Below are positions 3,017-54,157 of a stretch of 58,391 bases of DNA, piece by piece. The first letter of the stretch is position 1. Every line of letters begins with the position of its first letter. The notes under the pieces were generated by a model. The model saw only the letters and a list, made by a program, of their open reading frames with translations. It had not been told where the DNA came from and ran no database searches. Source of the stretch: a bacterium (GTDB taxonomy: Bacteria > UBP14 > UBA6098 > JAFGQG01); the NCBI GenBank assembly GCA_016930435.1, contig JAFGGQ010000093.1:1-58391 (forward strand), given 5' to 3'. The position numbers and the translations under genes were made by a program.

Positions 3017-3034
3017 GATATAAGGGAGAATATA

Positions 3035-4180: not shown

Positions 4181-4218
4181 GCAGCCGTAAGATGATAACC
4201 CAAAAAGGGGAAATGAGT

Positions 4219-5349
4219 ATGGATTTCAAATTGAGCGAAGACCAGAAACTGATTCGGGATATGGTTCGTGAATTCGCTCAGAAGGAGCTTCCTGACCTCG
4301 CGGCCCAGATCGACGAAAAGCCCGGGTTCCCCCATCAGATCATAAGTAAAATGGCTCAACTGGGCTTGTTCGGTTTGTTTATCCCGGAAGCCTTTTCAGG
4401 TGGGGGAATGGACCTGCTGAGCCTGATCCTGACTGTTGAAGAACTGAGCAAACACTGCTCTTCTATCGGAATTTTCACTGCCCTTCAAGCTGGAGTAATC
4501 CCTTACGCAATTACTAGATACGGTACCCAAAAGCAAAAGGAGAATTACCTGCCCCGGATAGCCGCCGGGAAACTACTGGCATCAATCAGTCTGAATGAAC
4601 CCTTGTTCCTGAACCAGGATAAAACCCCTGTACTTACATGCAGGCTGGAAGGAGAAAATTATATTCTGAATGGATTCAACCGTTTGGTGTTAGCCGCTGA
4701 GGAGGCAAATTTATTCCTGCTCATCGCTCAAGATGAAAAACAGCAATGGAAATTGTTCCTGGTTGAGAATGGGATACCCGGTTTAAAAATAACGGGCATT
4801 GAGAACTCGATGAGCCTGAGGGATTTGAAATTAGGCCAAATGGTTTTAGATAATTGCATAATACCCGCCGGGAACCTTCTGGGGAAAGGGGATATTCAAC
4901 TGGAAATAAGGGCCGATATTTTTGAAACGGGTAAGCTGCTGATAGCCGCAGTAAGCCTTGGTATTGCTGAGATGGCTCTCCTTAAGGCCCGGGATTATTC
5001 GCTGGAGCGAAAGCAATTTGAAACGGTAATCGCTGATTTCGAAGGGATGCGATGGATGATGGCTACCATGCAGAGCAAGGTAACTCAGATCAGAGCGCTC
5101 CTGGCCCACGCCGTGAACCTGAAAACTGCAGGTGAACCTGCCGCTTCTGAAATCGCTATCGCAAAAATGGTGGCTGCCGAATCGGCCATTGAAATAACCC
5201 TCGATGCCATTCAGGTTTATGGCGGATACGGCTATATGAAGGATTTTCCCCTGGAGCGTTATTTCCGGGAGGCCAAAGCCACGGAATTTATTCTGGGAAC
5301 AAGGTCCCAGCAACTGAATATTATCGCTAATAAGTTAATACAAAAATAA
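4219..5349 (+). CDS. Second divergent acyl-CoA dehydrogenase-like subunit lacking the catalytic Glu
   Basis: A 376-residue ACAD-fold protein. The N-terminus MDFKLSEDQKLIRDM is classic. The ATG at 4219 is chosen over in-frame ATGs at 4192 and 4213 because AAAGGGG lies about 9 bases upstream and the start matches the paralogue at 5386. The beta domain is degenerate: LASISLNEPLFLNQDK in place of GxxxLTEPNAGSD, and NRLVLAAEEAN in place of RFITNGTASD. The C-terminal FAD-adenine motif is retained (QVYGGYGYMKDFPLERYFREAK), with an SLERKQFE pyrophosphate region. The catalytic Glu is replaced by Leu359 (EFILGTRSQ), and the helix-G alternative is Gly. It likely acts as a structural/FAD-binding partner rather than a catalyst. 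It is independently diverged from the 1958 protein. Confidence 0.8.
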   Translation: MDFKLSEDQKLIRDMVREFAQKELPDLAAQIDEKPGFPHQIISKMAQLGLFGLFIPEAFSGGGMDLLSLILTVEELSKHCSSIGIFTALQAGVIPYAITRYGTQKQKENYLPRIAAGKLLASISLNEPLFLNQDKTPVLTCRLEGENYILNGFNRLVLAAEEANLFLLIAQDEKQQWKLFLVENGIPGLKITGIENSMSLRDLKLGQMVLDNCIIPAGNLLGKGDIQLEIRADIFETGKLLIAAVSLGIAEMALLKARDYSLERKQFETVIADFEGMRWMMATMQSKVTQIRALLAHAVNLKTAGEPAASEIAIAKMVAAESAIEITLDAIQVYGGYGYMKDFPLERYFREAKATEFILGTRSQQLNIIANKLIQK

Positions 5350-5385
5350 AAAAATGTAACCGGATATTTCCGGGAAGGAGGAAAG

Positions 5386-6528
5386 ATGGATTTTAACTTG
5401 ACCGATGATCAAAAGCTGCTGCAGAAAATGGTTCGGGATTTTGCGGAAAAAGAAATGCGGGAGAAAGCAGTAGAGATTGACGAGAGCCGGGAATTCCCCT
5501 TTGATACCCTGAAAAAGATGGCTTCTCTGGGACTTATGGGAATGGTGGTTCCCGAGGAGTATCATGGTGTTGGTATGGATTTTGTATCTGTGGCCATCGC
5601 GGTAGAGGAAATATCCAGGGTTTGCGCTTCAACCGGGGTGATCGTGGCCGTTCAGAACACCCTGGCTGAATATCCCATTGTGGCTTTCGGGACCGAAGAA
5701 CAGAAAAAGAAGTACTTGCCTGACATGGCAACCGGAAAGAAGATAGGATGCATCTGTCTCACCGAACCCAATGCTGGTTCGGACGTTGCGGGATTTGAAA
5801 CTGTCGCCGTGGACAATGGGGACCATTGGGTATTGAATGGCGCAAAGCGTTTTATCACCAATGGTACCGCATCCGATGTCTTTATTACCTTCGCCTATAC
5901 CGACCGGGAGAAAAGACATAAGGGGATGGATGTATTCATCGTTGATAAAGATTCACCCGGTCTCTCCGTGGGCAAGCACGAAAACCTGATGGGAATCCGC
6001 GCCACCGGGAACTGCGAAGTGATCTATGATAATTGTATTGTACCGAAAGAAAACCTTCTGGGTCCCAAAAGCGAGGGCTTCAAAACCGCTATGAAGATCC
6101 TGGATGTGAGCCGGATCGACATCGGCGCTCAGGCGGTTGGTATTGCTCAAAGCGCCCTGGATGAAGCCGTAAAGTACTCCAGGGAGCGAGTTCAATTCGG
6201 TGTCCCGATCTGCACCTTTCAAATGATTCAGGATATGCTGGCACAGATGGCTACCAAGATCGAGGCGGCTCGGCTCCTGGTCAGGCAATCAGCCTTCATG
6301 AAGGATGCCGGGATACCCCGTTTCTCACTGCAATCCTCTATGGGAAAATATTACGCATCCGAGATCGCCGTTGAATGCGCCCGGATGAGCCTCCAGATCC
6401 ACGGCGGCGTGGGCTATACCAAAGATTACCCTATCGAAAGGATATACCGGGATGCCAAAATACTGGAGATCTATGAAGGCACTACCCAGGTTCAAAAAAT
6501 CGTTATCGCCCGTTCACTCCTGAAATAA
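5386..6528 (+). CDS. Acyl-CoA dehydrogenase (complete, canonical)
   Basis: A 380-residue complete short-chain/butyryl-type ACAD, the only one of the four with every motif: CLTEPNAGSDVAG, RFITNGTASD, GIRATGNCEVIYDNC, SRERVQFGVPI, IHGGVGYTKDYPIERIYRDAK and catalytic Glu364 in EIYEGTTQVQKIV. It oxidises a saturated acyl-CoA to the trans-2-enoyl-CoA and passes electrons to electron-transfer flavoprotein, encoded downstream at 10709-12438. It has a strong ribosome binding site, GGAAGGAGG, 5 bases before the ATG. Chain length or branching cannot be called. Given the downstream leucine-type genes, isovaleryl- or 2-methylbutyryl-CoA are candidates along with butyryl-CoA, although the Glu position is the short-chain type, not that of isovaleryl-CoA dehydrogenase. 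Confidence 0.93.
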   Translation: MDFNLTDDQKLLQKMVRDFAEKEMREKAVEIDESREFPFDTLKKMASLGLMGMVVPEEYHGVGMDFVSVAIAVEEISRVCASTGVIVAVQNTLAEYPIVAFGTEEQKKKYLPDMATGKKIGCICLTEPNAGSDVAGFETVAVDNGDHWVLNGAKRFITNGTASDVFITFAYTDREKRHKGMDVFIVDKDSPGLSVGKHENLMGIRATGNCEVIYDNCIVPKENLLGPKSEGFKTAMKILDVSRIDIGAQAVGIAQSALDEAVKYSRERVQFGVPICTFQMIQDMLAQMATKIEAARLLVRQSAFMKDAGIPRFSLQSSMGKYYASEIAVECARMSLQIHGGVGYTKDYPIERIYRDAKILEIYEGTTQVQKIVIARSLLK

Positions 6529-6584: not shown

Positions 6585-7721
6585 GTGTCTGCCGGAGATC
6601 TGGAAAAGCATGATGTATTGAGCTGTATTCAATGTGGACGTTGCACCGCCGGTTGTCCGGTTTCCATCCGGACTACTTTTAATATCAGGGGTACTATAAA
6701 CCTCAACTTAAGGGAACGGAAGAAATGGATACAGCCCCAGGATATATGGAGTTGCACCACCTGCCATACCTGCGCTTCGCGCTGTCCGAAGGGCGTAGGC
6801 ATTGTCGATTACATCATGGGATTGAGGAGCTATCAGGTGGAGCGCGGGAAGATAGACCCAGCCGCCAGGGATGCCCTGGAGAGCATCCTGAAGCACGGTA
6901 ACCCGTGGGGCAGAGTGCGGGAAAAAAGATCCGATTGGATCGGGGAAAATAAGGTGCGCATCCTTCAGGAAGGTGAATCCACAGAGGTACTCCTCTTCGT
7001 AGGCTGTACACCTGCGTATGATCCCAAGGCTCAAAAATCCGCCCAGGCCCTTAGCCGCATCCTTGCCATCGCCGGGGTGGACTTCGCCATAATGGGCAAC
7101 TCCGAAACCTGTTGCGGTAATGAAGTTAAAAGAATGGGAGAGCTGGGCCTCTTCGAAATGCTGGTAGAAGATAATACCAACCTCTTCTCCAAATACAAAT
7201 TTAACAAACTGGTCACCATCTCCCCCCATTGCTACAATACATTTAAAAATGAATACCCTAACCTGGGTGATAAGGTCATACATTACACCCAGTTCCTGGT
7301 TGAATTGTCTGAGAAGGGCAAACTTAAGCTATCTAACGATAATGAAGCTAAGGCGATCTTCCACGATCCATGCTTTCTTGGAAAACAGAATCTGATTTAT
7401 GAGGAGCCGCGAACCCTGCTCAAGGCTGTTTTAAAGGAAGAGCTGCTGGAGTTCGACCGGAACCGTGAACGCAGCCAATGCTGTGAAGGCGGCGGCGGCC
7501 GGATGTGGATAGAAGTTGATTCCGATAAACCCCGAACCGCCGAAGAACGGGTCAGGGATGCCCATTATTACGGGGCTGAAATCCTGGCTACCAGTTGCCC
7601 ATTCTGCCTTCTTACCCTCTCCGACGCGGTAAAAACAGCGGGATTGGAGGATAAACTTCAAGTCAAAGATATCTGTTCCATTATATCACCCGGCGAAGGG
7701 GAAAAAGATGGCCAGACTTGA
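6585..7721 (+). CDS. HdrC/HdrB-like (CCG-domain) iron-sulfur oxidoreductase
   Basis: 378 residues with no membrane segment. The N-terminal ferredoxin-like part binds two [4Fe-4S] clusters (C14/17/20/24 in CIQCGRCTAGC; C57/60/63/67 in CTTCHTCASRC), as in HdrC or GlpC. Two CCG domains follow, as in HdrB: about 141-225 with TCCGNE, and about 262-350 with QCCEGGGGR and a closing SCPFC. The first CCG domain closes with SPHC instead of CPxC, so one cluster ligand of that half is missing. The start is GTG (AAAGGA 10 bases upstream). Proteins of this class take electrons from ETF or act in heterodisulfide-reductase-type complexes. Its place between ACADs, etfBA and an HdrA-like module suggests it links them (inference). 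Confidence 0.88.
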   Translation: MSAGDLEKHDVLSCIQCGRCTAGCPVSIRTTFNIRGTINLNLRERKKWIQPQDIWSCTTCHTCASRCPKGVGIVDYIMGLRSYQVERGKIDPAARDALESILKHGNPWGRVREKRSDWIGENKVRILQEGESTEVLLFVGCTPAYDPKAQKSAQALSRILAIAGVDFAIMGNSETCCGNEVKRMGELGLFEMLVEDNTNLFSKYKFNKLVTISPHCYNTFKNEYPNLGDKVIHYTQFLVELSEKGKLKLSNDNEAKAIFHDPCFLGKQNLIYEEPRTLLKAVLKEELLEFDRNRERSQCCEGGGGRMWIEVDSDKPRTAEERVRDAHYYGAEILATSCPFCLLTLSDAVKTAGLEDKLQVKDICSIISPGEGEKDGQT

Positions 7722-12593: not shown

Positions 12594-13868
12594 ATGAAAA
12601 AAATAGGTGTATTCGTCTGTCATTGTGGTCTGAATATTGCCCGAACGGTTGATGTGAAGAGGATTGCAGAGGAGATAGGTAAACAACCGGGTGTATTGGT
12701 ATCTGAAGATTACCCTTATATGTGTTCGGATCCCGGGCAGAGCTTGATCAGGGATAAGATCAAGGAGTATGATCTGGACCGGGTTGTAGTGGCTTCCTGC
12801 TCGCCGACGCTTCATGAACCTACCTTTATGAGGGTACTGGAAACTGCAGGGTTGAATAAGTATTGTTTTCAAATGGCCAATATCCGTGAACACTGCTCCT
12901 GGGTCCATGAGGATCGGGAAGAAGCGACCGGGAAGGCCCTTATCATTATAAAAGCAGCCTTGGCAAAGGTACGCCTGTTAGAACCTCTGGAGGATTTTCA
13001 GGTGGATGTAACACCCGAAGCATTAGTTGTAGGAGGTGGTATTGCCGGGATACAAACCTCTCTGGATATCGCCGAATCCGGCTTCCGGGTCCACCTGGTG
13101 GAGCGGGACCCATCCATCGGCGGCCACATGGCCCAGCTTGATAAAACATTCCCCACACTGGACTGCTCAGCTTGTATCCTGACCCCAAAAATGGTCGATG
13201 TGGCTCAACATCCCAATATTGAACTCTATACCTACGCCGAAGTGGAAAAAGTAGATGGTTTCGTAGGCAACTTCAAGGCCACTATCAAATTGAAAGACCG
13301 CCATATTCAAGCAGACAAATGCACCGGCTGCGATCTCTGTACAAGTAATTGCCTGGTCAGATACATTCCGCAAACACGAGCAAAACCATCCGTAAAAACA
13401 AAGCTGGACAAGGAGATGATGGACTTGCTGGATGATCTGGTCCGTAAATTCGGTCGTGAAGAGAGCGCTTTGATCCAGGTCCTGCAAGCAGTCAACCGCT
13501 ATTACCGCTATCTGCCCGAACTCTCTCTGAAATATCTCAGTGAGTGTTTTGATATACCTCTCACCAGGGTTTATCACCTTGCCACGTTCTATAGCTCTTT
13601 CAGCTTGGTACCCCGTGGTGAGCACCTGGTAAGGGTTTGTATGGGGACTGCCTGCCACGCCCGTGGCGCGCCCGAAGTGCTGGATATGCTCCGGAGCATT
13701 CTAAAGATCGAACCGGGTCAGACAACAGAAGACCAGAAATTCACCCTTCAAACCGTAGGCTGCCTGGGATGCTGCGCGCTTGGCCCCGTCGTGGTAGTCG
13801 ATGAAGACTATTACCAGATGACACCAGATAAGGCTGAAAAAATCATCCAATCTTATAAGAAAAAATAA
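12594..13868 (+). CDS. HdrA N-terminal half fused to a NuoE-type [2Fe-2S] domain
   Basis: A 424-residue fusion. Residues 1-253 match the first part of heterodisulfide reductase subunit A: the N-terminal Cys-containing domain (GVFVCHCG, SCSPTLHEP, ANIREHCSW), the FAD Rossmann motif VVGGGIAGIQ (145-154), RDPSIGGHMAQLDKTFP, DCSAC, and one [4Fe-4S] site C243/246/249/253 (CTGCDLCTSNC). HdrA then stops, and residues about 272-424 are a NuoE/HydA-type thioredoxin-like domain with [2Fe-2S] ligands C349, C354, C390 and C394 (CMGTAC, CLGCC). The second half of HdrA is found in the product of 15760-17553. The gene for NuoF lies 14 bases downstream. Start: ATG with only a weak GGGA upstream. Its role is probably electron transfer between NADH, FAD and iron-sulfur carriers. 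Confidence 0.87.
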   Translation: MKKIGVFVCHCGLNIARTVDVKRIAEEIGKQPGVLVSEDYPYMCSDPGQSLIRDKIKEYDLDRVVVASCSPTLHEPTFMRVLETAGLNKYCFQMANIREHCSWVHEDREEATGKALIIIKAALAKVRLLEPLEDFQVDVTPEALVVGGGIAGIQTSLDIAESGFRVHLVERDPSIGGHMAQLDKTFPTLDCSACILTPKMVDVAQHPNIELYTYAEVEKVDGFVGNFKATIKLKDRHIQADKCTGCDLCTSNCLVRYIPQTRAKPSVKTKLDKEMMDLLDDLVRKFGREESALIQVLQAVNRYYRYLPELSLKYLSECFDIPLTRVYHLATFYSSFSLVPRGEHLVRVCMGTACHARGAPEVLDMLRSILKIEPGQTTEDQKFTLQTVGCLGCCALGPVVVVDEDYYQMTPDKAEKIIQSYKKK

Positions 13869-13882
13869 GCATAGGAACAGTA

Positions 13883-15736
13883 ATGCCCAAGTTCAAAAAA
13901 ATAGAAGACCTCACCAGATACAAAAAGCAAGTTGAAAGCCAGAGAGAATCTCAAACAAAAACCATAACGGTTTGCGGAGGGACCGGCTGCATAGCCTTGG
14001 GAGCCAGCAAAGTGATTCAATCCTTCCATGAAGCGGTTAGCAGGCACCAGCTAAATGAACAGGTGAAGGTATTGGTTACCGGATGCCATGGTTTTTGTGA
14101 GAAGGGCCCTCTGGTAGTGATACGCCCGAAGGGTATATTCTACCATAGCGTAAAACCGAAGGATGCAGAAGAGATCGTTGAAAAAAGCGTAATAGGGGAC
14201 GAGATTGTGGAGCGTTTACTCTTTGTGGATCCGGTCAACCATGAAAAGTATAGCCGGGAAGACCAGGTTCCATTCTATGAAAAACAGATGCGCCTGATCT
14301 TCGGTAACAATGGATTTTTGAATCCTACCAGCATTGATGATTATATTGCTATCGGGGGATATTCCGCACTTGCCAGGGCGTTAAAGGAAATGTCCCCGGA
14401 CCAGATTATCGAGGAGATTGTTAAATCGGGTTTAAGGGGTCGAGGTGGTGGTGGTTTTCCTACAGGCAAAAAATGGAAGTATTGCCGCCGTGCCGAAGGG
14501 GATTTGAAATATGTGATCTGCAATGCCGACGAAGGGGATCCTGGCGCATACATGGACCGTTCACTCCTGGAAGGAAATCCTCATTCGGTTCTGGAAGGTA
14601 TGATCATTGGGGCTTATGCGATCGGATCCCGTGAGGGTTATATATATGTCAGGGAAGAATATCCCTTAGCCCGGGAGCATTTTGGCAAGGCACTGGCTGA
14701 CGCTCACGAGTATGGTTTATTGGGAGAAGGGATAATGGGCACCGATTTCTGCTTTAAGGTTAACATCAGCGTAGGTGGCGGAGCCTTTGTATGCGGGGAA
14801 TCTACAGCCCTTATGGCTTCAATCGAAGGCCGGCCCGGTGAACCCCGGCCCAAACACTTTCATACCGTTGAAAGGGGCCTCTACGAACGGCCAACTACCC
14901 TGAACAATGTGGAAACCTGGGCAAATGTGCCCCTGATCATAAATAAAGGCGCTGACTGGTATAGCCAGATCGGGACCGAGGGCAGCAAGGGAACCAAGAT
15001 ATTCTCGCTGGTTGGCAAGGTGAACAACACCGGACTGGTGGAAGTCCCCATGGGAATGACGCTTCGGGAGATCATCTACGGGATCGGCGGGGGGATCAAA
15101 GGGGGAAAGAAGTTCAAGGCGGTACAAACCGGAGGACCATCCGGAGGCTTGATCCCCGAACAGTTCCTTGACACCGGCGTGGATTTCGACCAGCTCACCA
15201 AGCTGGGCTCTATGATGGGCTCCGGTGGAATGATTGTGCTCGATGAGGAAAATTGTATTGTGGATATAGCCAAATACTTCATCGATTTTCTCAAGGATGA
15301 ATCCTGCGGGAAATGCATCCCCTGTCAGGAGGGCCTGATTCAGATCAGCGCTATTCTCAAACGGATAACCGAGGGTAAAGGTAAAGAAGAGGACCTGGAT
15401 ACCCTCCAGGATATTTCCTGGTTGATGCAGAACGCATGTTTGTGCGAGCTGGGTAAATCCGCTCCTAATCCGCTGATTACCGCATTACGGTATTTCGCTC
15501 CTGAGTTCGATGCCCACATCAGGGATCAGCGCTGTCCGGCCGGGGTTTGTAAGGCTTTGATCACCTTCAGGATAAATCCGGAAAAATGCACAGGCTGTAC
15601 TATCTGTGCCATAAAATGCCCGGAGAACGCAATTTCAGGCGAGAAAGGCCAACCCCACGTGATCGACCCTCAAAAATGTACCCGCTGTAAAATATGCTAT
15701 AGCGTTTGTAAGTTCGGAGCAGTGGAAAGAGAGTAA
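13883..15736 (+). CDS. NuoF/HydB-like NADH-binding flavoprotein subunit
   Basis: A 617-residue NADH-oxidising subunit. In order: an N-terminal thioredoxin-like [2Fe-2S] domain (C31 and C36 in CGGTGC, then CHGFC near 73-77); the NADH/FMN domain (GLRGRGGGGFPTGKKW about 184-199, CNADEGDPGAYMDRSLLEGNPH, GGGAFVCGESTALMASIEG); an SLBB domain; the [4Fe-4S] site SCGKCIPCQEG; and a C-terminal two-cluster ferredoxin (CTGCTICAIKC, CTRCKICYSVC). This is the HydB-type layout of bifurcating hydrogenases and NADH-linked Hdr systems. No hydrogenase gene lies nearby. AGGAA precedes the ATG. Together with the flanking genes it forms a NuoEFG-like unit joined to a split HdrA. Confidence 0.93.
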   Translation: MPKFKKIEDLTRYKKQVESQRESQTKTITVCGGTGCIALGASKVIQSFHEAVSRHQLNEQVKVLVTGCHGFCEKGPLVVIRPKGIFYHSVKPKDAEEIVEKSVIGDEIVERLLFVDPVNHEKYSREDQVPFYEKQMRLIFGNNGFLNPTSIDDYIAIGGYSALARALKEMSPDQIIEEIVKSGLRGRGGGGFPTGKKWKYCRRAEGDLKYVICNADEGDPGAYMDRSLLEGNPHSVLEGMIIGAYAIGSREGYIYVREEYPLAREHFGKALADAHEYGLLGEGIMGTDFCFKVNISVGGGAFVCGESTALMASIEGRPGEPRPKHFHTVERGLYERPTTLNNVETWANVPLIINKGADWYSQIGTEGSKGTKIFSLVGKVNNTGLVEVPMGMTLREIIYGIGGGIKGGKKFKAVQTGGPSGGLIPEQFLDTGVDFDQLTKLGSMMGSGGMIVLDEENCIVDIAKYFIDFLKDESCGKCIPCQEGLIQISAILKRITEGKGKEEDLDTLQDISWLMQNACLCELGKSAPNPLITALRYFAPEFDAHIRDQRCPAGVCKALITFRINPEKCTGCTICAIKCPENAISGEKGQPHVIDPQKCTRCKICYSVCKFGAVERE

Positions 15737-15759
15737 TTTAAAAGGAATGGAAATTTAAC

Positions 15760-17553
15760 ATGAACAAGTTGATTATCGATGGAATAGAGGTTACCCCGGA
15801 TCCATCCCGGACGGTGTTGGAAATAGCTACTGAGCTTGGTATCGAGATACCCACTCTATGCCATTATAAAGCTCTCTCACCCTACGGAGCCTGCCGGATC
15901 TGCGTGGTTGAAGTGATCTGGAAAGGGGAATCCAAACTTCAAACGGCTTGCACCTTTCCAGGCTGGGAAGGTGAGATCCGCACCAATTCCGAGATGGTTA
16001 AGAGGGCCCGTAAATTACTGCTGGAACTTTACCTGGCAAGGGCACCCAAATCAACCGAGATCAGGGAACTGGCCCAAAAATACGGGGTGGAAAAAACAAG
16101 GATGGATCCACGCGCAAATGAAACTGCCCCTCAGACCGCTATCGGATTTAGAGATCCCCAGAAATGCATCAATTGCGGTTTGTGCGTTCGTGTTTGTAAT
16201 GATCTGATGGGCATCGGGGCAATCGGTTTCGAGGGCCGGGGTCATAAAAGGACGGTTGGAACACCCTTCGATCAAAAGAGTGAAACGTGCGTGGTTTGCG
16301 GTGCTTGCGCCGCGGTATGCCTTACCAAAGCCATCAACATTAAAAATATCTCGGGCCTTGAACCCAAACCGGTCCTTTCCGAATTCAATATGGGACTTCA
16401 ACAACGTTCCTCTGTTTATATCCCCTTTCCTCAGGCGGTACCCAAGGTGCCTGTTATCAGTGAACAGAGCTGCATGTACTTCTTTAACCAGCACTGCAGA
16501 GCATGTGAAAAATTCTGTGGGAGTAACGCCATCGACTTTGAACCAAATGAGAAAAAACTGGAACTGGATATAGGAGCTATTGTTGTAGCTACCGGCTTTG
16601 ACCAATTTAACCCGGAGGAGAAACCGGAGCTGGGTTATAGGGATTATGTGAACGTGATCTCCGGTCTGGAGTTTGAACGATTAATATCACCCTCCGGGCC
16701 CACGGGCGGTGAGATACTGATCGCCGGCCAGAAACCTAAGAAGGTGGTTCTGGTGCACTGTGTCGGTTCAAGGGATTCGACGGTGGGTAATCCATACTGT
16801 TCAAGGGTCTGCTGTATGTATCTTATGAAGCATGCGCATCTTATCAAGGAAAAGATGCCCAAGGCACAGGTCACAGCTTTTTATATTGATATAAGGGCAT
16901 TTGGAAAGGGCTATGAAGAGTTTTATGACCGGGTAAGGGCCGAGGATGTTTTCTTCCGCCGGGGGTCGGTTTCCGAGATATTCAAACGGAGGGGAACCTT
17001 GATCGTCAAGGCGGAAGATACCCTGACCGGTGAGCCGGTGGAAGAAGAGGCTGACCTCGTTATACTGGGTACCGGAATAGTTCCACGCCATGATGTTACT
17101 GAGATGGGGCGCATTCTGAAGATTGTGCAGTCGCAGGACAGGTTCTATTTGGAAGCGCATCCCAAGCTGCGACCGGTGGACACCTTTAGCGAGGGGGTCT
17201 TTTTGGCTGGTTGTTGCCAAGCTCCCAAGGATATTCCGGATACCGTGGCCCAGGCCAAGGCAGCTGCTTCTTCGGTGGCCGCTATTCTTTCCAAAAAGAA
17301 GCTTACCGTTCCACCAATAGTTGCTATCGTCGATGAAGACGTTTGCGCCGGCTGCAGAAGCTGTGAACAGGTCTGCGAATTCAAGGCTCACATCTTCGAT
17401 GAAAATCGTATGGTGATGACCATAAATACTATTCTATGCAAGGGCTGTGGAAATTGCGTGGCTACCTGTCCCTCCTCAGCTATACGCATGAATGTATATA
17501 CCAATGAACAATTGCTGGCCGAATTGGATTCAATCCTGAAAATTATTAACTGA
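15760..17553 (+). CDS. NuoG-like [2Fe-2S]/[4Fe-4S] domain fused to HdrA C-terminal half
   Basis: A 597-residue fusion. Residues 1-75 hold a NuoG/HydA [2Fe-2S] ferredoxin (C34, C45, C48, C64). The usual His-Cys3 cluster is absent (LARAPKSTEIRELAQKYG instead). Two [4Fe-4S] sites follow (C136/139/142/146 and C177/180/183/187). From about residue 208 it reads as HdrA from the middle of its inserted ferredoxin: SSVYIPFPQAVPKVPVI, cluster C238/246/249/253, FAD-domain segment GAIVVATGFDQF, the HdrA-specific cluster pattern C334-x12-C347-x3-C351-C352, RAFGKGYEEFY, EAHPKLRPVDT, DIPDTVAQAKAAA, and two C-terminal [4Fe-4S] sites. It complements the HdrA N-half in 12594-13868. AAAGGA precedes the ATG at 13 bases. 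Confidence 0.88.
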   Translation: MNKLIIDGIEVTPDPSRTVLEIATELGIEIPTLCHYKALSPYGACRICVVEVIWKGESKLQTACTFPGWEGEIRTNSEMVKRARKLLLELYLARAPKSTEIRELAQKYGVEKTRMDPRANETAPQTAIGFRDPQKCINCGLCVRVCNDLMGIGAIGFEGRGHKRTVGTPFDQKSETCVVCGACAAVCLTKAINIKNISGLEPKPVLSEFNMGLQQRSSVYIPFPQAVPKVPVISEQSCMYFFNQHCRACEKFCGSNAIDFEPNEKKLELDIGAIVVATGFDQFNPEEKPELGYRDYVNVISGLEFERLISPSGPTGGEILIAGQKPKKVVLVHCVGSRDSTVGNPYCSRVCCMYLMKHAHLIKEKMPKAQVTAFYIDIRAFGKGYEEFYDRVRAEDVFFRRGSVSEIFKRRGTLIVKAEDTLTGEPVEEEADLVILGTGIVPRHDVTEMGRILKIVQSQDRFYLEAHPKLRPVDTFSEGVFLAGCCQAPKDIPDTVAQAKAAASSVAAILSKKKLTVPPIVAIVDEDVCAGCRSCEQVCEFKAHIFDENRMVMTINTILCKGCGNCVATCPSSAIRMNVYTNEQLLAELDSILKIIN

Positions 17554-17573
17554 TAACCACTTTGAATTTAACA

Positions 17574-18566
17574 ATGACTTCTGATGAACTTTTAGATCGT
17601 TTTTTTAACGGGGACATGGTTGCCCTGGCGAAGGTTATTTCCCTGGTGGAGAACCGCTCCCCGGATCATGAGCGGGTATTGGCCAGACTATTCCGGGAAT
17701 GCCGTAATGCATACCGTGTAGGGATTACAGGCCCCCCCGGCGCGGGTAAAAGCACGGTGGTAGATAAGATCGCCATGCACCTGGCCGAAGATGGGACGGA
17801 AATGGGCATCGTGGCCGTTGATCCCACCAGTCCCTTTACCGGTGGAGCAGTACTGGGCGACCGCATCCGAATGAAGGACCTCTATAAATACGATAATATC
17901 TTCATTCGAAGTATGGCTACCCGGGGTTCGTTGGGGGGATTGGCATCCGCAACTAAAGATGTCCTGGTTGCCCTCGATGCTTATGGCAAAGAACTGATTC
18001 TGGTTGAAACCGTGGGCGTGGGACAGGTTGAACTGGATGTGGTGGATGCCTGCGATACAGTCGTTGTTATGCTAACTCCGGAGGCCGGCGATTCGGTTCA
18101 GGCTATGAAGGCCGGACTACTGGAAATCGCCGATGTATTCGTCGTCAATAAGGCCGACCGGGACGGAGCCGAAATATTCGCTATTGAACTGCAATCCATC
18201 CTGGAGATCAAGGAGAATAATATGCCCAAATCATCCAAACCCCACTGGAAAACACCCATCGTCCTGACCGTAGCACCTGAAGACCGGGGAATCTCCGATT
18301 TATGGAACACTATAGAAAAACACAGGGATTTCATTATACGTGAGGGCATATTCGAAACACACCGGAAACTCCAGATCAAGCACAAGATCGAGCAGATAAT
18401 CGAGAATAAGATCAGATTGCTGGCTCAGCGAAAATTTTTAACCGGTATCGATATCGATCATATTGCCAGCGGGGTATATGAGGGCCAGATCGATCCATAT
18501 AGTGCGGTAAATAAGTACTGCCGGCTGAAGGAGTTTGAAAATATTTTCGAGGGTGATCAATTATGA
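17574..18566 (+). CDS. meaB: Methylmalonyl-CoA mutase-associated GTPase MeaB (ArgK family)
   Basis: A 330-residue G3E-family GTPase that gates cofactor loading and protects methylmalonyl-CoA mutase. Walker A GPPGAGKST, then VDPTSPFTGGAVLGDR, MATRGSLGG, ETVGVGQVELDVVDACD, TPEAGD and the base-recognition NKADRDGAE are all canonical, as is the C-terminal dimerisation arm. Neither candidate start (TTG 17562 or ATG 17574) has a clear ribosome site; the ATG is taken as the conservative choice. The stop overlaps the next gene, encoding the cobalamin-binding subunit, by ATGA. It therefore belongs to propionate/valine/isoleucine carbon flow through succinyl-CoA. The catalytic mutase chain is not in this window. 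Confidence 0.93.
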   Translation: MTSDELLDRFFNGDMVALAKVISLVENRSPDHERVLARLFRECRNAYRVGITGPPGAGKSTVVDKIAMHLAEDGTEMGIVAVDPTSPFTGGAVLGDRIRMKDLYKYDNIFIRSMATRGSLGGLASATKDVLVALDAYGKELILVETVGVGQVELDVVDACDTVVVMLTPEAGDSVQAMKAGLLEIADVFVVNKADRDGAEIFAIELQSILEIKENNMPKSSKPHWKTPIVLTVAPEDRGISDLWNTIEKHRDFIIREGIFETHRKLQIKHKIEQIIENKIRLLAQRKFLTGIDIDHIASGVYEGQIDPYSAVNKYCRLKEFENIFEGDQL

Positions 18567-18958
18567 AGAGGATACGTATATTAATGGCTAAAGGGGGGTT
18601 GGATGGTCATAGCCGCGGGATAAAAGTTGTGGCAAGGGCATTAAGGGATGCCGGATTCGAAGTGATATACACCGGATTGCATCAGAGCCCAGGTATGATC
18701 GTTAAAGCAGCTATCCAGGAGGATGTGGACCTCATTGGGATCAGCATACTCTCCGGCGCTCACATGGCCATATTCCCCAAGGTACTGGAGCTTTTACAAC
18801 TGGAGGGAGGGGGGCATATCCCGGTATTCGGAGGGGGAATCATACCATCTGCGGATCAAAAAAGGTTAGAGAAAATGGGCGTGAAAAGGATTTTCGGACC
18901 GGGAACCCGCACCACCGAGATCGTGGACTGGGTCAAAAAAAATTTGGGCGACGTCTGA
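18563..18958 (+). CDS. Methylmalonyl-CoA mutase cobalamin-binding subunit (C-terminal domain)
   Basis: A 131-residue stand-alone B12-binding domain. It has the base-off/His-on motif D-x-H-x-x-G as GLDGHSRG near residue 13, followed by the Rossmann-like segments VIYTGLHQSPG, LIGISILSGAH and VFGGGIIP. This is the split-subunit form of methylmalonyl-CoA mutase, where the substrate-binding chain is a separate protein. It is translationally coupled to meaB. No mutase large subunit or epimerase gene is seen here, so those must lie elsewhere. It ends the long gene run; the Rnf operon starts about 100 bp downstream from its own promoter. Confidence 0.93.
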   Translation: MKRIRILMAKGGLDGHSRGIKVVARALRDAGFEVIYTGLHQSPGMIVKAAIQEDVDLIGISILSGAHMAIFPKVLELLQLEGGGHIPVFGGGIIPSADQKRLEKMGVKRIFGPGTRTTEIVDWVKKNLGDV

Positions 18959-19061: not shown

Positions 19062-20378
19062 ATGGCTTTGACCTTTAAAGGCGGGACACATCCCCACGGA
19101 AACAAGCACTTTACCCAGGGTAAAGCGATCCAGGTTTTGCCCCCCCCCGAATTGATAGCCATCCCTTTGAGTCAGCATATTGGCGCACCCGGAAAGGCAC
19201 TGGTCAAGAAGGGTGATACGGTTAAAAAGGGCCAGGTCCTATCTGAATCCCAGGGCTTCGTTTCTATACCCGTTCACTCAAGTGTCTCGGGTAAAGTAAA
19301 GGATATAAAACCCTGGCCTCATTTTCTGGGTAGCACCTCCGAGACAATCCTTATTGAAAATGACGGGGAGGACTCACCGGCTGAGCAGATTACCCATCCC
19401 GATTGGTCAGCATTGTCCCCGGATGACATCCGCAGGATTGCCCGTGAAGCCGGATTGGCAGGTATGGGGGGCGCTGCCTTCCCGACCGTAGTTAAACTAT
19501 CGCCTCCAGCGGGTAAGATTATCGATACGGTTATCCTGAACGGCGCGGAATGTGAACCCTACCTTACCGCAGATCACCGCCTTATGCTCGAATACCCGGA
19601 CGATATAATCGAAGGGATCAAGATGATCCTGTTCACCCTGGGGGTTAAGAGGGCTCTTATCGGTATTGAAAAGAACAAACCAGACGCTATTAAATTACTT
19701 ACCGAAAAAACCGCTAATATTAATGAAATAAAGGTTGTAGGGGTAAAGGTGAAATATCCCCAGGGTGCGGAAAAACAGCTGATTGATGCCATCACCGGCC
19801 GCAAGGTGCCATCTGGCGGACTGCCCTTCGATATAGGCTGCTACGTCCAGAACGTTGGCACTGCTAAGTCGCTCTATGATGCCGTGGTAAAGGGGATTCC
19901 CTTAATTGAACGGGTGGTTACGGTTACCGGTAAAACGCTGAGAAATCCCCAGAATTTCCTTGTTCGGATCGGCACCCCCATCAAGCATCTGATCGAGGCC
20001 TGCGACGGGACCACCGAACCGATCGGCAAGATCATCATGGGCGGCCCGATGATGGGTATTGCCCAGTCCTCGGACGAAGTACCTGTGGTCAAGGGGACCT
20101 CCGGGATTCTGGTTTTTTCCCGGAAAGAGGCGGACCTGCCCCAGGAAAAACCCTGTATATCCTGCGCCCATTGCGTTGACGTATGCCCCATCAAGCTGTT
20201 GCCATCTACCCTGGCGTCCCTGATCGAGAACGCAAGGTTCGAAGAAGCAGAAGAATATAGGCTTTTTGACTGCATGGAATGCGGGAGCTGCACCTTCGTG
20301 TGCCCATCTAAACGCAGAATATTGCATTATATTAAATGGGGAAAAGACGAGGTTATCAAAAGCAGGAAAAAGAAGTAA
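19062..20378 (+). CDS. rnfC: Rnf complex subunit C
   Basis: 438 residues; the peripheral NADH/FMN and two-[4Fe-4S] subunit of the ion-translocating ferredoxin:NAD+ oxidoreductase. Seen: N-terminal HPHGNK and barrel-sandwich segment, the NuoF-like flavin region AGLAGMGGAAFPTVVKL, NGAECEPYLTADHRLM, KYPQGAEKQLI, a GGPMMGI loop, and the clusters CISCAHCVDVC and CMECGSCTFVC near the C-terminus. It is the compact form without the long C-terminal tail of gamma-proteobacterial RnfC. AAAGG precedes the ATG. First gene of a six-gene rnfCDGEAB operon. Confidence 0.96.
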   Translation: MALTFKGGTHPHGNKHFTQGKAIQVLPPPELIAIPLSQHIGAPGKALVKKGDTVKKGQVLSESQGFVSIPVHSSVSGKVKDIKPWPHFLGSTSETILIENDGEDSPAEQITHPDWSALSPDDIRRIAREAGLAGMGGAAFPTVVKLSPPAGKIIDTVILNGAECEPYLTADHRLMLEYPDDIIEGIKMILFTLGVKRALIGIEKNKPDAIKLLTEKTANINEIKVVGVKVKYPQGAEKQLIDAITGRKVPSGGLPFDIGCYVQNVGTAKSLYDAVVKGIPLIERVVTVTGKTLRNPQNFLVRIGTPIKHLIEACDGTTEPIGKIIMGGPMMGIAQSSDEVPVVKGTSGILVFSRKEADLPQEKPCISCAHCVDVCPIKLLPSTLASLIENARFEEAEEYRLFDCMECGSCTFVCPSKRRILHYIKWGKDEVIKSRKKK

Positions 20379-20396
20379 GCAGGTTCAGGAGGAATA

Positions 20397-21452
20397 ATGG
20401 CCGATAACAAATTAGCAGTTGCGGTTTCACCCCATGTGCGGGAGGACATCTCTATCCGCAAGATAATGTTCGGGGTGTTGTTGGCGTTATTGCCTGCCCT
20501 TGCCGGCTCGGTCTATTTTTATGGTATAAAAGCGCTATGGCTCTCCCTGATCGGTGTGGCATCAGCACTCGCCGCAGAAGCAATTTTTCAACTAATCCGT
20601 GGCGTACATATTGATGTAACCGATGGTAGCGCCGCTATCACCGGATTACTGCTGGCCTTTAACCTCCCTCCGGACGTCCCCTACTGGATGCCCGTTATAG
20701 GCGCCTTTGTAGGAATTATGATCGGGAAGCAGCTCTTCGGCGGCCTGGGGCGCAATATCCTCAATCCGGCATTGGTGGGAAGGGCTTTCCTGATGGCTTC
20801 CTGGCCGGTTGATATGACCACCAAGTGGATCGTACCACGATTCGGAACCCTGTCCGGGATCGACACCGTTACATCTGCTACCCCACTTAATGTCTTTAAA
20901 AGCATGCAGAGTGTTATTGCAAATCCTGAAGCCACTGCAGTTGAACTCGGAAACGCACAGCAAACCCTGCAGCAACTGGGTTCGAACTGGAGTAATATGT
21001 TCTTCGGTAATATCGGGGGCTGCCTGGGCGAAACCTCAGCTGTATTATTGTTAATCGGAGGGATCTACCTGCTGATTAAAAATTACGCGGACTGGCGCAT
21101 ACCGCTTAGCTATATCGGCAGCGTGGCTCTCCTTTCCTGGGCCTTTATGGGTTCTAACGGGCTGTTCTCCGGCGCAGTGCCCTTCCATATCTTTTCAGGT
21201 GGACTTATGCTCGGAGCATTCTTTATGGCCACCGATATGGTTACTACTCCCATCACTCCCAGGGGAAGGTGGATTTTCGGTATCGGATGCGGAATATTCA
21301 CCTTTGTTATCCGAAAATGGGGTGGTTACCCGGAAGGGGTATCCTACTCTATCCTATTGATGAATATTGCCGCGCCATTAATAGACAGATATACCAAACC
21401 CAGGGTGCTGGGCTATCATAAAAAACCAAAAGAAGAGAAGAAAGCCGAATGA
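20397..21452 (+). CDS. rnfD: Rnf complex subunit D
   Basis: A 351-residue polytopic inner-membrane subunit with about nine hydrophobic helices. Covalent FMN attachment is expected at the Thr of TSATPL near residue 160. Other family segments: FGGLGRNILNPALVGRAFLMASWP, GGCLGETSAVLLLIGG and ATDMVTTPITPRGRWIFGIG. GGAGGAATA precedes the ATG. The stop overlaps the rnfG start (ATGA). It is part of the ion channel and electron path between RnfC and RnfG. Confidence 0.96.
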   Translation: MADNKLAVAVSPHVREDISIRKIMFGVLLALLPALAGSVYFYGIKALWLSLIGVASALAAEAIFQLIRGVHIDVTDGSAAITGLLLAFNLPPDVPYWMPVIGAFVGIMIGKQLFGGLGRNILNPALVGRAFLMASWPVDMTTKWIVPRFGTLSGIDTVTSATPLNVFKSMQSVIANPEATAVELGNAQQTLQQLGSNWSNMFFGNIGGCLGETSAVLLLIGGIYLLIKNYADWRIPLSYIGSVALLSWAFMGSNGLFSGAVPFHIFSGGLMLGAFFMATDMVTTPITPRGRWIFGIGCGIFTFVIRKWGGYPEGVSYSILLMNIAAPLIDRYTKPRVLGYHKKPKEEKKAE

Positions 21453-22087
21453 AATTTATCCTCAAATTAGGCCTGATTCTGATGGTCTATACCCTCATTG
21501 CCGGAGTAAGCCTGGGCTTTATCAATAAAGTTACCAAGCCTAAAATAGAGGAGCAGCAGCGGATGGAACGGGAGCGCGCGCAGAAAGAAGTGCTCCCCGA
21601 AGCATTGGTCTTTGTTGAGGATACCACTTCAGGCGGCCTGGATTATCTCATAGGCTATGATTCTGAAGGGCGGACTTCGCCGGTAGGCTATATCCTGACT
21701 ACATTCGGCGATGGCTTCAGCAGCAAGATCAAGACCATCTTCAGCGTTACTACCGATTTTAAGGTGGGGGCAATAGAGATCGTTTATCAGGAGGAGACAC
21801 CGGGGCTGGGAACCCGCTGTGTGGAGATAAAGGGGGATAGTCCGGAACCCTGGTTCGAAATGCAATTTGATAGTCGCTCCCCTCAAGATTTACTGGTAGA
21901 TAAGGACGGGGGAAACATTACATCCATTACCGGGGCGACCATTACCTCCCGGGCCATCGCCAATTCGGTGCAGGAAAAACTGGAAGAATTCAAAAACGAG
22001 CTTGGAGCCAGCAAAGAAGATAGTATTCTCATCACAAGCGAGGTGCGGGATTCCATTGAGATCGGAGGTGATAATGAGCCTGATTAA
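21449..22087 (+). CDS. rnfG: Rnf complex subunit G
   Basis: 212 residues with one N-terminal membrane helix (LGLILMVYTLIAGVSLGF) and an extracytoplasmic FMN-binding domain. The flavinylation motif appears as SITGATITSRA near residue 160, where FMN is linked to the Thr of GAT. YQEETPGLGTR is also typical. The acidic C-terminal tail is not conserved in the family. It overlaps rnfD by four bases and rnfE by 14 bases. Confidence 0.95.
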   Translation: MKFILKLGLILMVYTLIAGVSLGFINKVTKPKIEEQQRMERERAQKEVLPEALVFVEDTTSGGLDYLIGYDSEGRTSPVGYILTTFGDGFSSKIKTIFSVTTDFKVGAIEIVYQEETPGLGTRCVEIKGDSPEPWFEMQFDSRSPQDLLVDKDGGNITSITGATITSRAIANSVQEKLEEFKNELGASKEDSILITSEVRDSIEIGGDNEPD

Positions 22088-22667
22088 GGAATTCACTAAG
22101 GGGATTATCAAGGAGAATCCGGTGCTGGTACTGGCTCTCGGTCTCTGCCCCACCCTGGCCGTTTCCACGACAATAGTCAATGGTATCGGAATGGGAATCG
22201 CAGCTACATTTGTTCTGGTGTGCTCCAATATGGTTATCTCCCTGATCAAGAATCTGGTCCCCAACCGTATCCGCATCCCTATCTTCATCACCGTGATAGC
22301 CACCTTTGTGACTATTGTCAAGCTGGCTATGGCTGCGTACTTTCCCGCGCTCTCCAAATCGCTGGGGATCTTTATTCCATTGATCGTAGTGAACTGTATA
22401 ATTTTGGGCAGGGCAGAAGGGTTCGCCAGCAAACATGGAGTGCTGAAATCCTTTATCGACGGTTTGGGGATGGGAGTAGGCTTCACCATGATACTGGTTA
22501 TACTGGGTACCTGCCGGGAGATACTGGGCTCCGGAACAATCCTGGGACACCCCCTTTTCGGGGAACATTTCAAACCAGCATTGCTGATGATCCTCCCGCC
22601 AGGCGGATTCTTTTCCATCGGAATACTGATAGCCCTGTCTAACCTCCTGCAAAAAAGGCTGGAGTAG
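22074..22667 (+). CDS. rnfE: Rnf complex subunit E
   Basis: A 197-residue membrane subunit with six helices, paralogous to RnfA in an inverted topology. Typical stretches: ENPVLVLALGLCPTLAVST, IPIFITVIATFVTIVKL, IVVNCIILGRAEGFASK and GMGVGFTMILVILGTCREI. The ATG at 22074 is preferred over an in-frame start 72 bases upstream because GGAGGT lies directly before it and the family begins there. It overlaps the end of rnfG by 14 bases. Together with RnfA it carries the intramembrane [2Fe-2S] site and the ion path. Confidence 0.95.
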   Translation: MSLIKEFTKGIIKENPVLVLALGLCPTLAVSTTIVNGIGMGIAATFVLVCSNMVISLIKNLVPNRIRIPIFITVIATFVTIVKLAMAAYFPALSKSLGIFIPLIVVNCIILGRAEGFASKHGVLKSFIDGLGMGVGFTMILVILGTCREILGSGTILGHPLFGEHFKPALLMILPPGGFFSIGILIALSNLLQKRLE

Positions 22668-22670
22668 AGC

Positions 22671-23321
22671 ATGAATATCGGAAACTTAATGATCATAGCC
22701 ATTAGCGCTATCTTGATCAACAATTTTGTGTTATCCCGCTTTTTGGGATTATGCCCCTTTCTCGGGGTATCAAAGAAGATCGATTCCTCCATCGGTATGG
22801 GCATGGCTGTGATCTTTGTGCTGACCCTTGCCTCCGCGGTAACCTGGATCATATATGAATACTTCTTGCTCCCTGTACCACAGAATATAATATACAGGAT
22901 CTTCCATTTGTTTAATACCTCCACAACCCCGGAAATGTTCGACCTGGCATACCTGGAAACCATTGCCTTTATCCTGGTCATCGCATCACTGGTACAACTG
23001 GTGGAGATGGTGATCCAGAGAGTCAGTCCACCGCTTTATGAATCACTGGGAATCTTTCTTCCCCTGATCACTACCAATTGCGCTATTCTGGGTGTAGCGG
23101 AACTGAACACCATCACTATCCACTATTCATTTATCGAAAGCACAGTGCATGGTTTCTCTGCGGGAATAGGCTTTACAATCGCCCTGATCCTGATGGCCGG
23201 GATACGGGAAAAATTAGAACTGGCAGATGTTCCTCCCGCCTTTAAGGGATTACCTATTGCCTTTATAGTCGCCGGATTAATGTCCCTGGCTTTTCTGGGA
23301 TTCTCCGGTTTGAGTTTTTAA
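22671..23321 (+). CDS. rnfA: Rnf complex subunit A
   Basis: A 216-residue six-helix membrane subunit. Diagnostic segments: NNFVLSRFLGLCPFLGVS, GMGMAVIFVLTLASAVTW, FLPLITTNCAILGVAEL and GIGFTIALILMAGIREKLE. Three bases separate it from rnfE, and GGAG precedes the ATG. The conserved Cys in GLCPF and in TTNCAILG would ligate the intramembrane iron-sulfur cluster shared with RnfE. Confidence 0.96.
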   Translation: MNIGNLMIIAISAILINNFVLSRFLGLCPFLGVSKKIDSSIGMGMAVIFVLTLASAVTWIIYEYFLLPVPQNIIYRIFHLFNTSTTPEMFDLAYLETIAFILVIASLVQLVEMVIQRVSPPLYESLGIFLPLITTNCAILGVAELNTITIHYSFIESTVHGFSAGIGFTIALILMAGIREKLELADVPPAFKGLPIAFIVAGLMSLAFLGFSGLSF

Positions 23322-23335
23322 GTTTGGAGTAGATT

Positions 23336-24289
23336 ATGGATATAACCGTAGTCAGCGCATTTGTTTTACTGGGTTTGATGGGCCTGCTCTTTGGGGCAAT
23401 CCTTGCCTTTATCGCCAAAAAATTTGCCGTTACCGTCGATGAAAGGGTAAGCCAGGTATTGGAGGCACTTCCAGGCATAAATTGCGGCGCTTGCGGTTAC
23501 CCGGGCTGCTCCGGCTTCGCTAAATCGGTGGTCGATGGTAAGGCCCCTGTTAGCGGCTGCATCCCCGGCGGGAAAGCGGTTGCGGATAATATTGCCCAGA
23601 TATTGGGCAAAGAAGTGGGCGAGAACGTAGCTATGGTAGCGGTTGCAAGGTGCGGCGGCGGGTGCCAAAACGCTGTAGATAAATATGAATATAAAGGACT
23701 GATGGATTGCCGCGCGGCGTATATACTGGGCGGTGGCCCCAAGCAATGTGATTATGGCTGCACCGGCCTGGGAACATGCGTTGAAGCCTGTCCCTTCAGG
23801 GCACTTACACTTGGTGAAAATAGGATACCCCTGACCGATTTCGATAAGTGCACAGGCTGCGGAATATGCGTAAGGATTTGCCCTAATAACGTGATGATGC
23901 TTATTCCCGCCGACCAGATGGTCTATGTGGCCTGCAACTCCCCGGATAAAGCCGCAGCTACTAAAAAAGCCTGCGCAGTCGGATGCATCGGCTGCCAACT
24001 GTGCCTCAAAAGCTGTCCAAAAGAAGCTATCAGGATAAATGGCTTCCTGGCCGAAGTAATCGATGAGAATTGTATCGGCTGCGGGGTCTGTATCCTGAAA
24101 TGCCCCACTAACGCTATCGTTGATAGGGGCACTGGAATCCCCCTCCCTGAACCGGAAAAAATGACCCGCCGGCGGCTGAAAAAAGAAGCGGAAGGTAAAA
24201 AAGATAAAAAATCCCCCGATGAGACCACACTAATCGAAACCTCAAACGGGTCAAACCAGCCTGAATCCCAACCGGAAAACGAAAATTGA
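23336..24289 (+). CDS. rnfB: Rnf complex subunit B (extended ferredoxin form)
   Basis: 317 residues. One N-terminal membrane helix (about 5-28), then the Fes-type cluster domain (CGACGYPGC near 45), then several ferredoxin-type cysteine groups: CTGLGTCVEAC, CTGCGICVRIC, CIGCQLCLKSC and CIGCGVCILKC. This is the longer RnfB found in anaerobes such as acetogens, expected to take electrons from reduced ferredoxin and pass them to the membrane subunits. The Lys/Glu-rich C-terminal tail (about 275-317) is low complexity. GGAG precedes the ATG. Last gene of the rnf operon. Confidence 0.96.
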   Translation: MDITVVSAFVLLGLMGLLFGAILAFIAKKFAVTVDERVSQVLEALPGINCGACGYPGCSGFAKSVVDGKAPVSGCIPGGKAVADNIAQILGKEVGENVAMVAVARCGGGCQNAVDKYEYKGLMDCRAAYILGGGPKQCDYGCTGLGTCVEACPFRALTLGENRIPLTDFDKCTGCGICVRICPNNVMMLIPADQMVYVACNSPDKAAATKKACAVGCIGCQLCLKSCPKEAIRINGFLAEVIDENCIGCGVCILKCPTNAIVDRGTGIPLPEPEKMTRRRLKKEAEGKKDKKSPDETTLIETSNGSNQPESQPENEN

Positions 24290-29463: not shown

Positions 29464-29590
29464 CAAAAAACCTCCTCGTTTAGTAAAAAATAATAATCAT
29501 ATTTGATGAATGTAGGTAAATAGTAATTTTAGGGAAAATAGTCAGCATTGGAAACTTTATTGTTTTTGATAAAAAAAATCGTTATTTGGA

Positions 29591-54092: not shown

Positions 54093-54157
54093 CAAACTCT
54101 CCTTCCGATACTCCAGTTAAATATAACGTAAGCGTATTCTTTATAAGATGCTTATTT

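Follow-up and report, generated by a model that had tools for sequence, protein, structure and literature searches.

The window, i.e., the whole 58,391-nucleotide contig JAFGGQ010000093.1 of an uncultured anaerobic bacterium analyzed here, contains three plus-strand open reading frames (ORFs), separated by gaps of 14 and 23 bp and coding for 424, 617, and 597 residues (P0001, P0002, and P0003, respectively; Table 1), in which HdrA is cut in two and its halves are fused to NuoE and NuoG on either side of NuoF. The order, strand, and spacings (14, 23, and 8 bp) of these split-HdrA genes agree with a sequence-only reading of the window made earlier, and both fusions that it described were recovered with slightly shifted boundaries. 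P0001 matches the HdrA profile NF040770 over 1–256 of 777 positions (E 1e-110) and the solved HdrA 5odc_A with residues 5–258 matched (336 bits), so that the HdrA part reaches approximately residue 256 rather than 253, and the NuoE family PF01257 is matched at residues 281–422 (E 2e-45), with C349/C354/C390/C394 invariant. P0003 is matched by profiles of NuoG/HydA-type N-termini at residues 3–196 and, from approximately residue 205 rather than 208, by positions 250 to 642 of NF040770 (E 2e-139) and residues 253–649 of 5odc (397 bits). The E-values (1e-98 to 1e-139) exclude chance as the source of the HdrA-half matches. P0002, between the two fused genes as had been read, is a full NuoF. No solved chain with both HdrA and NuoE was found among the structure matches listed.

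The position of the cut is precise. In P0001, HdrA breaks off directly after the first cysteine motif (KCTGCDLCTSNC, C243–C253) of its inserted ferredoxin, and P0003 picks it up a few residues past the break, bringing the second motif (C238/C246/C249/C253). Because the break falls in the inserted ferredoxin, which is flanked by the flavin adenine dinucleotide (FAD) domain, the latter is divided between the chains as well, so that each chain has only one half of either domain. Joined in silico, residues 1–262 of P0001 and 197–597 of P0003 align with 5odc over 636 of 645 columns with 334 identities (52.5% identity) and with neither overlap nor lost segment, which is the continuous match that the sequence-only reading had anticipated. 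Its central claim, an HdrA FAD domain divided between two polypeptides, likewise held, and neither half is a complete FAD site: the GxGxxG first half (GGGIAG) occurs only in P0001, whereas E356 and K409 (5odc numbering), which have been linked to bifurcation (PMC12054007), and the C-terminal FAD motif occur only in P0003, where the two residues correspond to E306 and the lysine of GKGYEEF. The alternative that each half has a full FAD site is not supported, given this division of motifs. The equivalents of E356, K409, and Cys197 are all retained in the joined halves, E356 and K409 being kept in every aligned sequence. The HdrA-type C-x12-C-x3-CC cluster was confirmed at C334/C347/C351/C352 of P0003 and is invariant in 14 non-tandem split systems. 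The same holds for the cysteines that ligate clusters in the inserted and C-terminal ferredoxins, NuoE, and NuoG, and those in NuoF are nearly invariant (11 or 12 of 12). The joined halves comprise all domains of a bifurcating HdrA (N-terminal FeS domain, thioredoxin reductase-like FAD domain with inserted ferredoxin, and C-terminal ferredoxin) but are not a single polypeptide with a continuous FAD domain, which is here split over the 12594 and 15760 products. Judged from sequence, the HdrA halves are complementary and together complete.

Single-chain AlphaFold2 models of P0001 and P0003, built from 32–33 sequences, have predicted local distance difference test (pLDDT) scores of 83.7 and 71.3, respectively. 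The P0001 model matches the fold of HdrA at 3–239 (Z 24), and its C-terminus matches NuoE of Wor-Bfu (9mqx_C; Z 20.4); the P0003 model matches 5odc at 261–651 (Z 26), and its N-terminus matches the NuoG-like domains of Wor-Bfu and hydrogenases (9mqx_A; Z 14.2). Complementary ranges of one HdrA structure, 3–239 and 261–651, are thus covered. The poorly predicted segments are the FAD loop 175–194 and half-ferredoxin 241–262 of P0001 and residues 466–505 of P0003.

The module lodged between the halves was examined for the features that separate bifurcating Bfu proteins from plain entry modules for reduced nicotinamide adenine dinucleotide (NADH), i.e., an N-terminal 2Fe-2S cluster, the RCPAxxC site, and a C-terminal ferredoxin (PMC9304861). 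The alignment of P0002 to the BfuB/HydB subunits of Wor-Bfu and bifurcating hydrogenases spans its full length (773, 766, and 746 bits; NiFe-HydB 7t2r_B 773 bits, Wor-Bfu 9mqx_B 766 bits), and the protein contains an N-terminal 2Fe-2S site, a flavin mononucleotide (FMN) domain, B1, the RCPAxxC site, and two C-terminal 4Fe-4S sites; the domains PF01512, PF10531, PF10589, and Fer4 correspond to the 2Fe-2S, FMN/SLBB/4Fe-4S core, and C-terminal 4Fe-4S pair of BfuB. The thioredoxin-like 2Fe-2S domain of BfuC and the 2Fe-2S plus Fer4 domains of BfuA are also present, both as fusions. In the NuoG part of P0003, one 2Fe-2S motif is accompanied by two 4Fe-4S motifs, and the His-Cys3 site is absent, much as in the cluster set of type 2 (PMC9304861). 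Since the BfuB features and this NuoG cluster set are present, the insert looks like a whole BfuCBA set, beyond a mere NADH entry, and the complex may have two bifurcation-competent sites. The description of the product as an NADH-linked Hdr complex is too narrow, NuoF being of the bifurcating BfuB type; this type, the probable EtfAB and HdrCB (6585) partners, and the published GltD/NfnB insertion in the same ferredoxin were absent from the sequence-only reading.

The three-gene arrangement recurs in several phyla. The source genome (G000) has a second full split set at C51, an N-truncated set at C150, and an intact HdrA at C32. Within the small phylum of the window, 7 of 17 genomes match the query strongly and six carry the fusion (G000, G007, G009, G010, G011, and G013), G006 having the GltD form only; in a second small phylum, which includes L010, five of eight genomes have the split set (one, G027, N-truncated). 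Matching genomes were further found in Desulfobacterota (11/395), Chloroflexota (1/350), and Fidelibacterota (3/199), where most of the loci read have a related layout, R-NuoE / NuoF / NuoG-C-N-R-C, with the interruption in the first unit of a tandem HdrA; for Desulfobacterota, Chloroflexota, and Bacillota, at most 7–8 candidates per genome were scored and the counts are lower bounds. None of 348 Bacillota genomes matched at E 1e-55, which is a weak negative from a search with no positive control. In two Desulfobacterota loci (L143 and L146), the R-NuoE fusions have an in-frame TGA at the Cys197 position (TNDCAM*IISPKL), probably encoding selenocysteine, which is known in HdrA/HdrL from this phylum (PMC2702500). 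At four loci, G000:C150 (L099 8830-11910), L144, L149, and L159, the NuoF adjacent to R-NuoE fusions has its C-terminal ferredoxin replaced by a fused GltD domain.

Table 1. Coordinates of the split-HdrA genes, their neighbors in the window, and related HdrA loci elsewhere
Feature	Position	Strand	Assignment
P0001	12594-13868	+	HdrA 1-256 fused to NuoE
P0001 residues 1-256	12594..13361	+	HdrA N-terminal FeS domain, FAD Rossmann half (GGGIAG), first half of inserted ferredoxin (C243/C246/C249/C253)
P0001 residues 271-424	13404..13868	+	NuoE/BfuC [2Fe-2S] domain, in-frame fusion
P0002	13883-15736	+	NuoF, BfuB type; between P0001 and P0003
P0003	15760-17553	+	NuoG/BfuA N-terminus joined to the remainder of HdrA (approximately residue 258 onward)
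P0003 residues 3-196	15766..16347	+	NuoG/BfuA N-terminus; 2Fe-2S C34/C45/C48/C64; 4Fe-4S C136-C146 and C177-C187
P0003 residues 205-597	16372..17553	+	Remaining HdrA: second half of inserted ferredoxin (C238/C246/C249/C253), rest of FAD domain, C-terminal 2x4Fe-4S
Four acyl-CoA dehydrogenase-type genes	1958..6528	+	Likely source or sink of ETF electrons
HdrCB-type protein	6585..7721	+	Carries 2x4Fe-4S and a pair of CCG domains; probably the high-potential partner
Clostripain-type (C11) peptidase	8246-10645	+	FlgD_ig-like C-terminus; between HdrCB and EtfB in otherwise redox operon
EtfB	10709-11470	+	PF01012/PF00766; directly upstream of split set
EtfA	11467-12438	+	PF01012/PF00766; directly upstream of split set
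MeaB GTPase and methylmalonyl-CoA mutase B12 domain	17562..18958	+	TIGR00750, TIGR00640; directly downstream
Rnf cluster (C, D, G, E, A, B)	19062..24289	+	Ferredoxin:NAD oxidoreductase; assigned from ORF order and size
GltD/NfnB-inserted HdrAs	L108 3078-6410; L109 1697-5029; G000:C113 (L100 4803-9428)		Two of three in window-like operon setting
Split HdrAs of window lineage	G011:C128 (L101 7579-10703); G013:C157 (L103 942-4026)		No NuoF between halves

The neighboring genes point to an electron-transferring flavoprotein (ETF) and acyl-CoA metabolism. EtfAB stays next to split or GltD-inserted HdrA in L010, L108, L109, L151, and L154, and HdrCB adjoins EtfBA in the related loci L108/L109; the nearest solved chain of the window HdrCB is 9ojn_A, an "iron-sulfur-binding reductase," followed by HdrC chains. 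Thiolase, enoyl-CoA hydratase, and biotin-carboxylase genes lie farther downstream. MvhD, the usual mid-potential donor, was not found in the window and has six copies elsewhere in the source genome; it occurs near fumarate-linked and tandem split loci and not beside Etf-linked split or GltD loci. Taken together, the acyl-CoA dehydrogenases, EtfAB, HdrCB, lack of MvhD, and Rnf suggest a reversible NADH/ferredoxin–acyl-CoA bifurcating or confurcating complex. In the second phylum (L151 and L154), split HdrA is also accompanied by ETF, HdrCB, and acyl-CoA dehydrogenase, with HdrA halves of another lineage. The G000:C51 set (L098) sits with HdrB, HdrC, a TfrA-like fumarate reductase flavoprotein, fumarase, and MvhD, and is possibly an NADH/ferredoxin–fumarate complex. 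One consistent reading assigns NADH and ferredoxin to the Bfu module and has HdrBC-type proteins connect ETF/acyl-CoA or fumarate with the high-potential branch.

In FlxABCD-HdrABC, NADH enters via Flx proteins beside an intact HdrA, unlike in the window system. FlxABCD-HdrABC is likewise a soluble NADH-linked HdrABC (cited in PMC10553843). HdrA of HdrABC-MvhAGD (5odc and its relatives, type I) has the same domains and the same catalytic and ligand residues, with the identity given above, but is one polypeptide with an intact inserted ferredoxin and no fused NuoE or NuoG. The HdrAs closest to the window copy (L108/L109) belong to type III, i.e., HdrA/HdrL with a GltD or NfnB insertion, in which an NAD(P)H module also lies within the same inserted ferredoxin (PMC12054007, PMC9012536, PMC2702500); in type III, however, the module is another one, is inserted approximately 35 residues beyond the Bfu break, and leaves HdrA unsplit in one reading frame. 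A domain search found no GltD domain in P0001–P0003, in contrast to L108/L109, which places the window system outside type III. The R-C-N-R-C order of type II tandem HdrA (PMC12054007) recurs in the tandem split loci, except that NuoEFG interrupts the first unit there. Bam-Bfu of the Bfu family likewise combines BfuABC (NuoGFE) with HdrA in one proposed complex, although HdrA and Bfu are described as separate subunits, BfuC and BfuA have no HdrA halves, and no Hdr-Bfu with ETF is listed (PMC9304861). Catalytic subunits of benzoyl-CoA reductase belong to Bam-Bfu; the neighbors annotated in the window are acyl-CoA dehydrogenase, ETF, and carboxylase genes. In Desulfotignum, nuoEFG is clustered with hdrA, mvhD, and etfAB, with no split mentioned (PMC4046663). 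GltD/NfnB insertions, tandem HdrAs, and Bam-Bfu have thus already been published (PMC12054007, PMC9012536, PMC2702500, PMC9304861); no description of HdrA split around Bfu was found in the open-access papers searched, in accordance with the sequence-only reading, which named no biochemically described complex of this kind.

The evolutionary history of the module appears to differ from that of the HdrA that carries it. The corresponding HdrCB-EtfB-EtfA-HdrA operon of G006 and G007 encodes a one-chain HdrA of 1110 residues with a GltD/NfnB domain in the inserted ferredoxin. The HdrA C-half tree clusters three copies, that of the window, G011:C128, and G013:C157, with the GltD forms (100/100), apart from other split HdrAs, and a single origin of the HdrA part of all non-tandem split HdrAs was rejected (constrained tree log-likelihood 183 lower, approximately unbiased test p 1e-4), the tested group having been picked after a quick tree had been viewed. 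The NuoE and NuoG trees instead join these three copies to the C51/C10/C13 split copies; the disagreement between the trees therefore indicates that the module was exchanged between HdrA paralogs. Within G011, the first chains of C128 and C10 are approximately 65% identical to residue 240 and 85–100% identical beyond, whereas the third chains are mostly 85–100% identical to residue 240 and approximately 50% beyond, with the DNA switching likewise. These switches delimit a converted tract that consists of the ferredoxin halves with NuoE and NuoG, so that [ferredoxin half + NuoE] and [NuoG + ferredoxin half] behave as one unit. The C128 spacer between the halves reads as a fusion of the E-F and F-G spacers of C10, and NuoE/NuoG of the two NuoF-less loci are closest to another locus (nearly identical in G011, moderately in G013); because both genomes have other NuoF genes, sharing of NuoF in trans is possible. 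We tentatively propose, with somewhat less than even confidence, that the inserted ferredoxin is an evolutionary socket taking different NAD(P)H modules, GltD or a whole Bfu operon, and that gene conversion swaps these modules among HdrA paralogs. On this proposal, where the module is Bfu, the bifurcating FAD would be made of two polypeptides that depend on the inserted module to come together, two bifurcation-competent sites would lie in series, and NuoF would be shared in trans where the locus has lost it.

We consider it reasonably probable that the three genes form one complex, in which HdrA was opened at its inserted ferredoxin by the NuoE-NuoF-NuoG module and left as two chains whose halves re-associate, with NADH/ferredoxin and HdrCB/ETF branches. 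The gap-free HdrA coverage, invariant ligands, full BfuB, conserved gene order in several phyla, complementary chain models, G011 conversion tract, and company of ETF, HdrCB, and acyl-CoA dehydrogenase rather than MvhD in two phyla argue for this arrangement. Re-association via NuoEFG would restore a single inserted ferredoxin and a single FAD pocket. Electrons would move in either direction along a path that connects NADH/ferredoxin at NuoF with the HdrA FAD by way of the NuoG clusters and the restored ferredoxin; this FAD is assumed to be the bifurcation site, and the Bfu core may bifurcate too. The high-potential branch would lead from the HdrA clusters through HdrCB and EtfAB to the acyl-CoA dehydrogenases. 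The inserted ferredoxin has been described as the docking place of MvhB/FmdF (PMC12350162) and as the low-potential exit to ferredoxin (PMC9012536), GltD within it has been proposed to carry NADH electrons (PMC12054007), and Bfu-HdrA coupling has been proposed for Bam (PMC9304861). Such a complex would link acyl-CoA/enoyl-CoA reversibly with NAD(H) and ferredoxin, and the adjacent Rnf would balance NADH against ferredoxin. With potentials of -280 mV for NADH, -500 mV for ferredoxin, and -10 mV for crotonyl-CoA (PMC9304861), the reaction 2 NADH + enoyl-CoA + Fd(ox) <-> 2 NAD + acyl-CoA + Fd(red) should be near equilibrium, and hence either direction is possible. Several observations weigh against this single complex: a lipoprotein-like ORF and the C11 peptidase intervene between HdrCB and EtfBA; the nearest solved structures of EtfB are bifurcating and ordinary ETFs alike; the models are moderate (pLDDT 84 and 71), with low-confidence stretches that fit absent partners and equally a thin alignment; and G011:C128 and G013:C157, of the window HdrA lineage, have no NuoF between the halves.

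Among the alternatives, it is conceivable but unlikely that only HdrA bifurcates, with NuoEFG as a plain NADH entry replacing MvhD as mid-potential donor and ferredoxin reduced at the C-terminal ferredoxin domain. This division of labor has been proposed for type III HdrA (PMC12054007) and agrees with the sister position of the window HdrA to the GltD-inserted HdrA of the same operon setting and with the lack of MvhD beside Etf-linked loci; however, MvhD does occur near other split loci, and NuoF has lost none of the extra B-cluster ligands, among them the RCPAxxC site and the C-terminal ferredoxin, which are said to tell bifurcating Bfu from plain NADH entry modules (PMC9304861). Still less likely, the Bfu core alone would bifurcate as a Bfu type 1/2 hybrid, with the HdrA FAD as a mere relay and HdrA as a wire to HdrCB/ETF as third substrate. 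The BfuBC ligands are indeed complete, and the FAD of Nfn-BfuA has been argued not to be a bifurcation site (PMC9304861), yet the conservation of E356 and K409 in all aligned sequences and the persistence of both HdrA halves in loci that lost NuoF speak against such a relay. We regard as quite improbable that the fused chains serve different complexes and never form one HdrA, the halves being relics or docking domains: an N-truncated R-NuoE version exists (L099), but both halves retain all ligands in 14 systems, are neighbors in the same order in the loci read, individually lack the full FAD motif set, and were jointly covered by gene conversion. An assembly or sequencing artifact, imaginable in a metagenome-assembled genome of 180 contigs, was rejected and has negligible probability because many independent genomes, as well as three loci of the source genome, contain these fusions.

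Flavin-based electron bifurcation rests on one finely tuned FAD, and here that site would need two gene products. If the single complex holds true, a conserved FAD site assembled from two proteins and held by another bifurcating module would show how such machines acquire new electron donors and would open the role of the inserted ferredoxin to direct testing; it would also supply a compact soluble NADH/ferredoxin/ETF complex with which uncultured phyla could run anaerobic acyl-CoA metabolism. Annotation pipelines likely label the genes "NuoE," "NuoF," and "NuoG/HdrA" and overlook the system.

Elsewhere in the window, two long minus-strand ORFs were observed: one of 4125 residues (41718-54095) with Big_5 Ig-like domains and a type IX secretion signal domain, and one of 1337 residues (25453-29466) with long internal repeats and no Pfam match.

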